From Lachnospiraceae bacterium (GTDB taxonomy: Bacteria; Bacillota; Clostridia; Lachnospirales; Lachnospiraceae), in NCBI GenBank assembly GCA_021770785.1, contig JAETQH010000021.1, forward strand, positions 1-64,000: DNA of 64,000 nucleotides. Direction: 5' to 3'. This document shows positions 34,622-56,045 of this stretch, piece after piece (within the stretch, counting starts at the first letter, position 1; every line of letters begins with the position of its first letter). The position numbers and the translations under genes are program-made. Under the pieces are notes generated by a model that made no database searches, was not told where the DNA came from, and was given only the letters and a program-made list of their open reading frames with translations.

Positions 34622-35644
34622 CTAAAACTGATTCAGAAATCTCTGGTCGTTTTCGTAGAGAAGGCGCATGTCGTCGATTTCGTACTTGAGCAGGGCGATA
34701 CGCTCTAATCCGATACCGAATGCAAAACCGGAGTATTCCTCCGGGTCAATACCGCTCATGCGCAGCACCCTTGGATGAACCATACCACAGCCTAAAATCT
34801 CAATCCAGCCCTCGCCTTTACAGAAACGGCAGCCTTTTCCGCCGCATTTAAAGCAAGTCACATCCATCTCCGCAGAAGGTTCTGTAAATGGGAAATGATG
34901 GGGACGGAATTTTACCTTTGTATCTGCTCCAAAAAGCTGTCTTGCGAACTCGGCTAAAGTACCCTTTAAATCAGCAAAGGTAATATTTTTATCAATAACA
35001 AGTCCCTCAATCTGATGGAAGGACGGGGAATGGGTGGCATCCACTTCATCGGCGCGGAATACACGTCCCGGCGCAATCATACGGATAGGAAGCTTTCCTT
35101 TTTCCATCTCACGCACCTGTACCGGGGAGGTCTGGGTACGGAGCACGATTTTGTCATTGATATAGAAAGTATCCTGCTCATCCTTTGCGGGGTGGTTTGC
35201 CGGAATATTCAACGCTTCGAAGTTATAATAATCGTACTCTACTTCCGGGCCTTCCACTACCTCATAGCCCATTCCGGTAAAGATACGCTCCACCTCTTCT
35301 AAGGCAATGGTATTAGGATGGCGGTGGCCTACATTATTTTTCTTTGCAGGCAGGGTCACGTCAATGACCTCTTTTTTTAATTTTGCCTCCATCTCGGCGT
35401 TCTCTAATTTTGTTTTGGTTTCCTCTAATAATTTTTCAATGCTCTCACGGGTTTCGTTGACAAGCTGTCCCACCAGCGGGCGTTCCTCCGGACTGACATC
35501 CTTCATGCCCTTTAAAACTGCGGTCAACTCTCCTTTTTTCCCGAGAATTGCAACCCGGACATCATTTAATTTTGACAAATCACCGGATTCTAATATCTGG
35601 CGCATTGCCTCTTCTTTGATTTTCTGCAGCTTTTCTTTCATCAC
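34622..35644 (-). CDS. pheS: Phenylalanine-tRNA ligase alpha subunit
   Basis: '[31 protein letters not shown]', '[16 protein letters not shown]'. Confidence 0.97.
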
Positions 35645-35704: not shown

Positions 35705-35789
35705 ATCGAGTAGGGGAGAATCTTTCCCTACTCGCCGCGCGGGGTGCGTGCTGCGAAGCAGCAGTATACATTACGCACCCCTGTGCATA
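35705..35789 (-). repeat. Two-hairpin element, copy A, between pheS T-box terminator and pheS
   Basis: atcgagtagg-N12-cctactcgccgcgc-[GGGGTGCGT..ACGCACCCC with inner GCTGC/GCAGC]-tgtgcata; shares ends and layout with 55677..55763. Confidence 0.85.
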
Positions 35790-36100
35790 AAAAATCCGCG
35801 GCTTCTCTCGTCTGAGGGACGAAAAAATCCGCGGTACCACCCTATTTCTTTGCTCCTGACACAGTTCTCACTGTATAACAGCTATCGCTGCATAGCAACT
35901 CTCGCTGCATAGCAACTCTCGCTGCATAGCAACTCTCGTTGCATAGGAAAAAGCTCTTATTATGCGTAACGTGCACCAAACGTCATCTGCTACTAAAGTT
36001 CACAAATGCGGCTCCTGTGGGAAATTCGATTCCTACCTTTTCTTAAGCGGGCTTTCAGCCGATGACCTGCTCTCTCTAAAAGAAGTATAGTGCTCTACTG
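35785..36100 (-). promoter_or_regulatory. T-box riboswitch leader of pheST
   Basis: T-box motif AGGGTGGTACCGCGG (complement at 35829..35844) followed by CCGCGG..CCGCGG terminator and T-run; upstream stem I-like structured region. Confidence 0.93.
35861..35942 (-). repeat. Five tandem 17-nt hairpin units inside the T-box leader
   Basis: 14-nt hairpins at 35861, 35878, 35895, 35912, 35929; sense-strand stems GCAAC/GTTGC, GCAGC/GTTGC (x2), GCAGC/GCTGT, ACAGT/ACTGT with GAGA or GATA loops. Confidence 0.9.
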
Positions 36101-36191
36101 AGGTTCTATGAACCACACATTCACAGCCTTTTTCACAACAATTTGTTGTTCTCAACTCTAATCGGTATTTTAGCACAGCAGGCGGCAAACA

Positions 36192-37061
36192 TCAAGTATT
36201 TTTTTCCATAACCTGCTCTTTGTCTCTCTTCCTCTCTTTCATAAACCAGGCCGGGAAATAATCGTCAAAGAGCACGTTCACCTCTGCCGACATCATCATA
36301 ATATACATGCAGAAATACAGCCACAGCATAATGAGTGCAATGGTAGTCAGGCTCCCATACATGGAAAACCCGTTAAAATAGTCCACATAAACAGACAGTC
36401 CAAAGGAAAACAGATACCACGCCACCGCACAGATTGCCGCTCCGGGAAGCTGGCTCCGCAGGGTCAGTTTCCGGTTTGGCAGTGCTGTAAATACCACGTC
36501 AAAGAAAAAGATTAAAAATACCAGCATCCAAAGTCCGCGGAATCTGGCAAAAATGTCCACCAGATTAGTAATAAAGGGAAAATAATTCATTGCCAGATGA
36601 CGGATGCTGTTACCGAATACCAATACTAACAGGGTAAACAGGATTGCTACCAAAAACACAATGGTATATATCACTGCCCAGAACCGCAGCACAAACCAGT
36701 TTCTCGTTTCCTCTAAATCATTAACGGAATTTAACCCGTCCGTCATGTACTGCACGCCCTTAGCAGCCGACCAGATTGCCACCACCGCCGTGATGGAGAT
36801 AATTCCCACGGAACGGCTGTAAACTTCATCCACCAGGGAAATCAGAAAGGGAGACACATACTGCGGCATCACCTTCTCAATAATCTGAAACAGCATTCCC
36901 TTGGTAACGCTGGTGTACTGTAACAGCGAGGAAAATACCATCAAAAAGGGGATAATGGACAAAATAATAAAGAAAGCCGACTGTGCCGAATAAGCATTTA
37001 TCTTGTCTCTTTTACATTTATCCATAAAGGATTTTACATTTCCAATAATTTTCCAAATCAT
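36192..37061 (-). CDS. YihY/BrkB family membrane protein
   Basis: 'DKINAYSAQSAFFIILSIIPFLMV', 'AICAVAWYLFSFGLSVYVDYF'. Confidence 0.9.
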   Translation of the reverse strand: MIWKIIGNVKSFMDKCKRDKINAYSAQSAFFIILSIIPFLMVFSSLLQYTSVTKGMLFQIIEKVMPQYVSPFLISLVDEVYSRSVGIISITAVVAIWSAAKGVQYMTDGLNSVNDLEETRNWFVLRFWAVIYTIVFLVAILFTLLVLVFGNSIRHLAMNYFPFITNLVDIFARFRGLWMLVFLIFFFDVVFTALPNRKLTLRSQLPGAAICAVAWYLFSFGLSVYVDYFNGFSMYGSLTTIALIMLWLYFCMYIMMMSAEVNVLFDDYFPAWFMKERKRDKEQVMEKNT

Positions 37062-37073
37062 AGTTTTCCTCTC

Positions 37074-39293
37074 TTACTCGTTTACATCCTCTATCTCCAC
37101 ATCCTGATAAAAAGCATGTAAAATATCCTCGCAGCTCATTCCTGCCTGTGCCATACCGTTTGCCCCGTTCTGGCTCATGCCAAGGCCGTGTCCGTAACCG
37201 CCCCCGGAAAGGGTGAGACTGCCGTCCTCCTGTGCCGTCACTGCACAAAATGCACTGGGCAGCATGGAAATATTTTCACTCTCACTGCCGTCTTTATAGA
37301 CCATTTTCTTCACCAGCGCCCCTAATACCTTGCGGATATTATACTCCGTTTTCACCCGGACTGCACCTTTTTCATACTGTAATTTTAATGTCAAAATCGA
37401 GCCGGAAGCGCTCCGTTCCTCCACCGATATGCCGGTAATCTCTCCCAGCTTTGCCGGGGAGTCCGTTTCCGTCACTCCGTCAGACCCATAATATATCACG
37501 TTTTTCTCAGAAACGGAACGCCTGTTTTTCAATATCTCATTGATTTCTCCTGTCTTGCCTGTAAAATCAGCCGTGGCAAACCAGCGATAATACTTGATGT
37601 CACTGTCAAAGCCTTCCGCATCACTTTTAATATAGTCTAAAAATTCTGTCTCATCCGAAAGATTTCCGTCATATTCAGACTGATTCAGACAGAATTTATG
37701 CAGATATCCGTAGTTTGCGGTATCGTCTATATTCCAGATTTCCGCCGTGTCTGTGTAGCCCATGGAGGTGGAAAAATAATATGCCTCCACCACATTCCCC
37801 TGGTATTTTAAAACCTTCCCCCGGGTCGTTTCCACTGCCTCCACGGATTCCACTGTCTGCGCCACCTTGTTATACACCTGGTAAGAAGTGCTGTCATTGA
37901 TGTGGGCACCGTATTCCGCTAAATCCGCCCGCAAAAGCTGTATGTAAGCATAGCTTCTGGCACAGACTGCCTGGGCTTTTAATGCCTCTGCTCCGAAGCT
38001 TACAGGCATTTCACTGGGCACCACCGCATAGAGATACTGCTCAAAGGGCAGCTGGTTCACCAACGTATAGCCCTGCTCATAGCTCCGTGCCTCCATACTT
38101 CCGCTGTACGGGTTAGAAACCGCTGTTCCGGAAGGTTCGCAGACAACCACTGTACCGCCCTCCCCCGGTGTCAGCGTAAAGGTTTTTCCCTCCTGATTTA
38201 CCAGATAATCGGTCACATGGATCTGGGTTCCCGCCGCTATATCCTCTTGTATATCGCCGCATTTGATACGGGACGGCGTATTGCATTTCAGATAAATATC
38301 ACTTCTGAAATTGCTGCCATCTTCCCCCAACAGCAGCACACGGATATCATTAATTTCTGCCGGTTCCCGTATTAAAATCGCACAGACCTCCGTACCTGCC
38401 GTAATATATTCCACATTCATATTTCCGAGGACGATGTCGGAAATGGATTTTTCCTGTATCTCCCCATAGGTCTGATAAACTGGAAGCTTTCCCTGGTGAG
38501 CGATTTTTCCATAATCCCTGATTTCAATGGTCTGCTCGTCATAGGATAAAAGCGCTCCCTCGATTCCGTCCTGTTTCATTCGAAGCGCCGTCACATTTCC
38601 CCGGGAAAACACAATATCACATACCCCAAGGGAAAAATCGGTGTCAATCTTCCCCACTTCCTTTTCGTAAATCCCACCGGAATAGAGAAAGGTCAGTTTT
38701 CCCTCCGCATTTTCCTTTAAATAAGCATTGGAAAGTTGTGTTTCTTCCTCTGAAATCCCCTTGACGCCGATACACATTTCCTCCATAGCATAAATGCCAT
38801 ATGCCTGCCACTGGGTAAACCACTGCTCCGGCAGTTCAGTGAAATAATCACCTCCGCTGGTTATCAGGATGACACCATCTTTTGCCGTCTCTGTATCTAA
38901 TAAGAGCACCTCTTTTTGTGCCACTTTTTTTTCCATATCCAGATAGTCTAAAATCTGCTCATAAATAAGCGTCCATTCCTCTCGTTTCACCGCCTGGCGG
39001 TTCCGTTTTTCCAGAGGAATCTGCTCCGACACCCCCAGTTTTTCCAGTAACTGTGCGGCCATTTCCCAGGTGAGATATTCCTTATGGTAAACGGCAAAGT
39101 AATCTTCCCACTCCTCCGGCGTATAAACAGAAAAAGCCAGCTCGGCTTTTACCTCTGAAAGGGCTATGTATTTCGTGGAATATTCCTCTTTCTGAAAATC
39201 GTTTTTCATTTTATCTGCCAGCAGTACACATAAAATAACCACAAGTAGTATCAGGAGGATTGCCTTTATTTTGGTATTTCGTCTCTGTTTCAT
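37074..39293 (-). CDS. SpoIID/LytB domain protein
   Basis: 'PFEQYLYAVVPSEMPVSFGAEALKAQAVCARSYAY', 'SGGGYGHGLGMSQNGANGMA'; start at MKQRRNTKIKAILL. Confidence 0.9.
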   Translation of the reverse strand: MKQRRNTKIKAILLILLVVILCVLLADKMKNDFQKEEYSTKYIALSEVKAELAFSVYTPEEWEDYFAVYHKEYLTWEMAAQLLEKLGVSEQIPLEKRNRQAVKREEWTLIYEQILDYLDMEKKVAQKEVLLLDTETAKDGVILITSGGDYFTELPEQWFTQWQAYGIYAMEEMCIGVKGISEEETQLSNAYLKENAEGKLTFLYSGGIYEKEVGKIDTDFSLGVCDIVFSRGNVTALRMKQDGIEGALLSYDEQTIEIRDYGKIAHQGKLPVYQTYGEIQEKSISDIVLGNMNVEYITAGTEVCAILIREPAEINDIRVLLLGEDGSNFRSDIYLKCNTPSRIKCGDIQEDIAAGTQIHVTDYLVNQEGKTFTLTPGEGGTVVVCEPSGTAVSNPYSGSMEARSYEQGYTLVNQLPFEQYLYAVVPSEMPVSFGAEALKAQAVCARSYAYIQLLRADLAEYGAHINDSTSYQVYNKVAQTVESVEAVETTRGKVLKYQGNVVEAYYFSTSMGYTDTAEIWNIDDTANYGYLHKFCLNQSEYDGNLSDETEFLDYIKSDAEGFDSDIKYYRWFATADFTGKTGEINEILKNRRSVSEKNVIYYGSDGVTETDSPAKLGEITGISVEERSASGSILTLKLQYEKGAVRVKTEYNIRKVLGALVKKMVYKDGSESENISMLPSAFCAVTAQEDGSLTLSGGGYGHGLGMSQNGANGMAQAGMSCEDILHAFYQDVEIEDVNE

Positions 39294-39377
39294 TCTCTCA
39301 CCATATTCTTCCAGTTTGATTCTGCAAAAAAGAAGCTGCCTGTATTTCAAAGCAGCTTCTTTTCTTTTGTGTCTTAT

Positions 39378-39557
39378 AGTTTTCTTTGGTACTTCTTTTC
39401 TTTCGTACCTTATTATTTCTCGAATGGTATCCAGATTACTTGTCTCATGTACTTTAAACCTTTTTCCGATGGTATCTTTATGGTTTCTCTTTTGTGCCTT
39501 AAGACTTTTTCTGATGGTACATTCTTTCTTTTTCTTCTGTACCCTGATACCTTTTCC
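39378..39557. repeat. Degenerate 45-bp tandem repeat
   Basis: '[g/a]atggta' anchors at 39423, 39468, 39513 (45-bp spacing) with T-rich body; earlier partial unit near 39378. Confidence 0.65.
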
Positions 39558-39599
39558 TTCGTTTTTTTCTAAATCTCTTTCGCATGACCCAAAATGCCG

Positions 39600-39781
39600 T
39601 TTCCTACGTTTTTGACGCCTAGCCAAAGCTAGGTGGGTAACCGCACGTTGGTTTCTGCCTTCCACTGCTCGCGTACCCTAGGGTACTGATGGCTTGACAT
39701 CTGCCGTCGAATATAGGAATCCCATGAACGTAAATGTAGGTTCAAAAATGTAGGGTGTCGTACATCCCAGGCTGTTTCGTT
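39600..39781 (-). ncRNA. ssrS: Probable 6S RNA
   Basis: Sense RNA GCCTGGGATGTACGACACCCTACATTTTTGAACC...GTGCGGTTACCCACCTAGC..GGCTAGGC; closing pairing GCCTGG/CTAGGC; strong promoter upstream; no ORF. Confidence 0.62.
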
Positions 39782-55676: not shown

Positions 55677-55763
55677 ATCGAGTAGGAAATACTTTTTCCC
55701 TACTCGCCGCGCGCCCCATGCGCCGCCTCAGCGGCATACTTCCTCTGCATGGGGTTGTGCATA
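55677..55763 (-). repeat. Two-hairpin element, copy B, between leuS T-box terminator and leuS
   Basis: atcgagtagg-N12-cctactcgccgcgcg-[CCCCATGC..GCATGGGG with inner GCCGC/GCGGC]-ttgtgcata. Confidence 0.85.
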
Positions 55764-56045
55764 TAAAAGGCTCCGTCTCCATATAAGAGACGAAGCCGGT
55801 ATACTCCGTGGTACCACTCTGTTTCGTATTAAAAATACGCACTCCTGATTCTTAACGCGAATGACACGCTCCGACCTACTTACACTTTGGCACACTCTTT
55901 CCACAAGGATGCTTCCATGTTTCAATCAAAGGACTCCAAGGCGAGTTGGGAACTTCTCCGTACTGTCTTTCACCTGCCGACAGTTCTCTGCAACGTATCC
56001 GTTCTTAATACTCCTTTTCAACGTCTGTCTCAAATCAATTACATG
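55764..56045 (-). promoter_or_regulatory. T-box riboswitch leader of leuS
   Basis: Sense RNA AGAGTGGTACCACGGAGTATACCGGCTTCGTCTC..GAGACGGAGCC T-box/terminator; stem I-like region upstream. Confidence 0.9.

Follow-up and report, generated by a model that had tools for sequence, protein, structure and literature searches.

The five tandem hairpins upstream of pheS are best explained as a lineage-specific enlargement of stem III in an ordinary Phe T-box antitermination leader, one that would be kept locally folded. We give this reading a probability of about 60%. The array occupies positions 35861-35942 on the minus strand of the window (the whole 64,000-nucleotide stretch of DNA analysed), and it is a genuine, though local, embellishment of a familiar switch. 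Of all genomes searched, only those of two sister species have it. The reading is based on two arrays in two genomes, and the units within them are not independent of each other.

The array sits in a Phe-specific T-box leader upstream of pheS-pheT. The leader matches the RF00230 model at 35812-36133 on the minus strand, with 80.3 bits and an E value of 1.7e-17 over all 219 model positions (1-219); the leader features given below are likewise on the minus strand. The match falls short of the curated gathering score of 93, and the large stem III insert is a likely cause of the score loss. Downstream are pheS (34625-35644, minus strand; TIGR00468, E 1.5e-107) and PheT, which matches TIGR00472; together with the RF00230 match, they bear out the earlier note, which had located the array in a pheS T-box leader. 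A likely promoter, TTGATG-17-TAAAAT with TG before the -10, was picked out by consensus scan at 36167-36195, and its arrangement is also visible in related leaders. The specifier codon, read by eye, is TTC (Phe) at 36021-36023, before CACAGGAG, and agrees with the pheS and pheT genes downstream. The conserved CGTTA of stem IIA/B (F-box region), present in related leaders as well, lies at 35967-35971. The T-box sequence AGGGTGGTACCGCGG of the antiterminator is found at 35829-35843 by sequence and by RF00230, with the UGGN element present as AGGGTGGTACCGCG at 35843. The terminator hairpin CCGCGG...CCGCGG, followed by a T run, is recognised from sequence and fold at 35789-35834 and is predicted to compete with the antiterminator; a simple terminator scan did not contain this hairpin in its list.

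The leader shares with the known transcriptional T-box of Phe pheS leaders (RF00230) a stem I with the TTC specifier, a stem II, the CGTTA of stem IIA/B, the RRRxG-stem III-AA arrangement, the GGGTGGTACC T-box, the terminator and an aminoacyl-tRNA synthetase gene downstream. It differs in stem III, which carries five tandem hairpins in the window and four in the sister, whereas relatives carry a single, sometimes long or branched, hairpin. A second T-box leader, upstream of leuS at 55783-56030 on the minus strand (113.3 bits), is without any such array.

Some neighbouring features of the window were also observed. An interspersed double-hairpin element, GGGGTGCG...CGCACCCC-GCGCGGCGAGTAGGG...CCCTACTCG, is present at 35729-35741 and 55701-55713 on the minus strand, plus flanks; at both pheS and leuS it is located after the T-box terminator and ahead of the start codon. 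Its core has 24 genome matches with at most one mismatch, versus 2 for a reversed control; the pheS leader of L013 has two copies, and that of the sister has none. A 6S RNA match at 39582-39776 on the minus strand (54.8 bits) overlaps the start of a long ORF at 37074-39665, and this overlap suggests that the true start of the ORF is probably further downstream.

The array is made of five 14-nt hairpins at an exact 17-nt spacing. Read 5' to 3' on the minus strand, and supported in each case by sequence, hairpin scan and fold, the units are GCAAC-GAGA-GTTGC (35929-35942), two identical copies of GCAGC-GAGA-GTTGC (35912-35925 and 35895-35908), GCAGC-GATA-GCTGT (35878-35891) and ACAGT-GAGA-ACTGT (35861-35874). 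TAT linkers stand between the units, and TAT precedes every unit. TRF reports a period of 17 with 4.8 copies and an 89% match at 35866-35946, and a scan for hairpins with a 5-bp stem and a 4-nt loop returns a period-17 run of five starting at 35942 on the minus strand. In 60 order-1 Markov simulations of 64 kb, the longest such run was two (38 times) or three (22 times), and never four. The period, coordinates and arms given by the earlier note were right, as was its description of the loops as mostly GAGA (GNRA): four of the five are GAGA, and the fifth, GATA in unit 4 (GAUA in RNA), is a GNNA but not a GNRA loop. In the sense RNA, all 25 of the 25 pairs are standard, including three G-U. A reading of the array as coding sequence was rejected, as the 17-nt unit is not a multiple of three, the frame from the ATG of unit 1 reaches a TAG in unit 4, and the first units of the sister are without this ATG.

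The discriminator of T-boxes is described by the motif RRRxG-stem III-AA (PMC7583486), and the window leader carries it as AAGAG-[stem III]-AA. The AAGAG purine string is at 35954-35958, the 5' strand of the basal helix, CTTTTTCCT, at 35945-35953, and its 3' strand, AGGAGCAAAG, with one bulged C and then the AA, at 35848-35857. This 9-bp helix encloses the array and is itself bracketed by AAGAG and AA, which places the array at the tip of stem III rather than in its stead and agrees with the stem III position that the earlier note had proposed from its place upstream of the T-box motif. The purine string could be placed in 91 of 93 pheS leaders. Across these 91, an average of 5.65 of the six basal stem III positions are paired, versus 4.12 (maximum 4.40) with shuffled partners, and the helix covaries, with several pair types per position. 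Predicted pair probabilities of the basal helix are 0.72-1.0 in the isolated stem; in a longer transcript of the window leader their mean would be about 0.5, which is a caveat on our reading.

Other T-boxes are known to carry extra RNA in the discriminator domain. The literature describes stem III as variable and notes discriminator insertions (PMC7583486), which fall in stem III and helix A2 (mainly in translational T-boxes) or, in Staphylococcus glyQ, form stem Sa. The window insert differs from these in being a repeated array, at the stem III tip only, in a leader with a full terminator. Among related pheS leaders, branched forms of stem III, such as that of L120, likewise bear a second small hairpin on the basal helix, but their two hairpins are unrelated and show no periodic repeat. 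We found no report of a periodic hairpin array in a T-box stem III in the literature covered, which included few subscription journals.

To place the array among relatives, PheS matches in 63 genus and 180 family genomes were used, yielding 93 leaders with a recognisable T-box. The T-box was not recognised by pattern in 10 of 103 pheS upstream regions, some of them on truncated contigs or with degenerate motifs; in one, L017, a different gene lies directly upstream and the T-box may be absent. Between CGTTA and the T-box, the 93 leaders have a median of 43 nt; the two longest distances are those of the window (129) and of the sister G020 (112), and the array adds about 70-86 nt to the median length. 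These two leaders alone have three or more hairpins in tandem in stem III. The sister, Roseburia sp. RGIG8471, is a MAG obtained from the caecum of water deer. A two-unit covariance model run on the 63 genus genomes found only the two known arrays above noise. In the GTDB species collection, no genome other than that of the sister has the array; 397 family members gave only single chance-level matches, and viral contigs gave none. The host genome has no dispersed copies except one stray with 2 mismatches. The array as a dispersed repeat was rejected upon these searches. In a scan of 60 T-box entries, which were chosen partly by length and included a few loci twice, the only runs were of three and chance-like.

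The comparison of the sisters indicates a rapidly changing insert within a stable leader. The sister array has four units, ACAGC-GATA-GCTGT, ACAGC-GGAA-GCTGT, ACAGT-GAAA-ACTGC and GCAGT-GATA-ACTGT, and all nine units of both species have GNNA tetraloops. The leader core differs by 4 substitutions in 181 positions and is 98% identical outside the array, whereas the array differs by 19 substitutions and one 17-nt unit. Third positions of pheS differ at 62 of 340, and array turnover thus appears to be about as fast as that of synonymous sites. The earlier note had proposed to compare repeat number and arms across strains, and would have taken unit changes that break pairing as a refutation. In the sister, the unit number is 4 versus 5 and the arms are largely different, with 19 of 20 pairs kept; one such break occurs, a terminal A-C in unit 3.

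The earlier note had also claimed selection on RNA, on the ground that the G-U pairs are permitted only in the sense transcript. That argument is weak and the numbers available do not sustain it. Two of the three G-U pairs in the window are in identical copies of one unit; in the sister array, G-U and A-C occur once each, and the two strands are equal at 19 of 20 standard pairs. Over both arrays, G-U exceeds A-C within units by 4 to 1, a ratio that comes from about three independent changes. Pairing does survive the turnover of the arms between the sisters. The arm changes number 11 and are all transitions. Pairing within units is standard in 97.5% of cells over both arrays, and only 6 of 500 shuffles were as good; pairing of an arm with the next unit is standard in 100% of cells, a level equalled by 37 of 500 shuffles. 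When the 11 transitions were placed at random, p was 0.08 for pairing inside units, 0.04 for pairing with the neighbour and 0.012 for both registers, or 0.16, 0.08 and 0.036 when limited to variable columns; all these values ignore the shared history of the units and are therefore optimistic. RNA-level selection on array pairing is plausible. However, since the arms pair equally with the neighbouring unit, duplication or template switching could account for part of the covariation.

This last process, taken alone, gives an alternative in which the array is a neutral palindromic minisatellite, whose palindromes are made and perfected by DNA-level duplication and template switching, with RNA structure irrelevant. 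The equal pairing within units and between neighbours, and the fast turnover, would fit it. So would the perfect covariation of the loop-side pair within units and of the linker-side pair between units, a pattern to be expected from short-range copying. Against such an account stand the exact position of the array within stem III, where the flanks and the basal helix are preserved, the retention of pairing in both registers above random transitions (p 0.012-0.036, uncorrected for unit relatedness), and the fact that the unit array is nowhere else in the genome or in the related genomes searched. We hold it to be unlikely. Binding of an RNA-binding protein or an ANTAR-type antiterminator to the array is highly improbable. 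Tandem hairpins are mentioned for ANTAR targets (PMC3369931), and those of the array, beside a terminator, resemble them. All nine units, however, have GNNA tetraloops with varying sequence (GAGA, GATA, GGAA, GAAA), in strings of four or five. An ANTAR target consists of a pair of hairpins with hexaloops and fixed loop bases. Regulation is, moreover, already explained by the T-box.

A timing role has to be weighed in addition. With 70-86 bases more than in the median leader, transcription must take longer to reach the decision, which makes a positively selected delay line a reasonable rival: each hairpin would add transcription time, and perhaps a pause, after synthesis of the tRNA-reading domain and before the terminator, and unit number would tune the response. 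One proposal sees the main role of stem III in transcriptional pausing there (30-60 s in vitro with NusG), and first-step tRNA binding proceeds at about 0.5 per second, so that seconds matter (PMC6197855). Yet related leaders have only about 43 nt at the stem III site, and a conserved unit number is not seen in the two genomes, with their 5 and 4 units; we consider such selection improbable. Its stronger form, an evolvable delay element in which slippage-changed unit number sets the time or folding path from tRNA capture to the termination decision and thereby tunes pheST expression, is more doubtful still.

Predicted folds are consistent with an enlargement of stem III that is tolerated because it insulates itself. 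Two forms are close in energy, one a necklace of separate hairpins (-37.3 kcal/mol) and the other with partial nesting (-40.7), and both stand on the basal helix. The between-unit form is predicted at -22.1 kcal/mol, and inter-unit hairpins with TAT loops were rejected as the main fold, being 10-15 kcal/mol worse than the within-unit necklace. In predicted leader-length transcripts, a mean of 0.4-0.8 nt of the array pair outside it, versus 20-25 for dinucleotide-shuffled inserts; the low value of the array was reached by 0-4 of 150 shuffled inserts. The mean basal-helix probability is predicted at 0.49-0.77, versus 0.04-0.08 with shuffled inserts, and both results are true for both species. 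This predicted self-containment is better support than the G-U argument, although it would be automatic for any young palindromic repeat, even without selection. Because the array would pair almost entirely with itself, a tolerated enlargement is the simplest mechanism. In L007, the nearest relative whose stem III is plain, there is a single hairpin, and its GCAGT/ACTGT arms resemble those of the array, a short similarity which suggests tandem duplication of the tip. A tip hairpin of the GCAGT...ACTGT type would thus have been duplicated in the ancestor of both sisters, after which unit number and arm sequence may have turned over quickly. The sole firm constraint would be self-folding of the insert, whether into a row of GNNA-loop hairpins or into a rod with partial nesting, which would prevent the 70-87 extra bases from invading stems I and II, the T-box or the terminator. 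With the array enclosed by the flanks and the basal helix, stem III retains the portion that brings the purine string into position against the antiterminator. A modest timing effect would follow physically, with more bases transcribed between tRNA capture and the decision to terminate or continue.

No part of the T-box is less well understood than stem III, whose function has been described as unclear (PMC6197855). The leaders of the two sisters, near-identical except for five versus four self-folding units at the tip, represent a natural test of stem III length and pausing, and show how large an insert the aminoacylation-sensing domain may tolerate.
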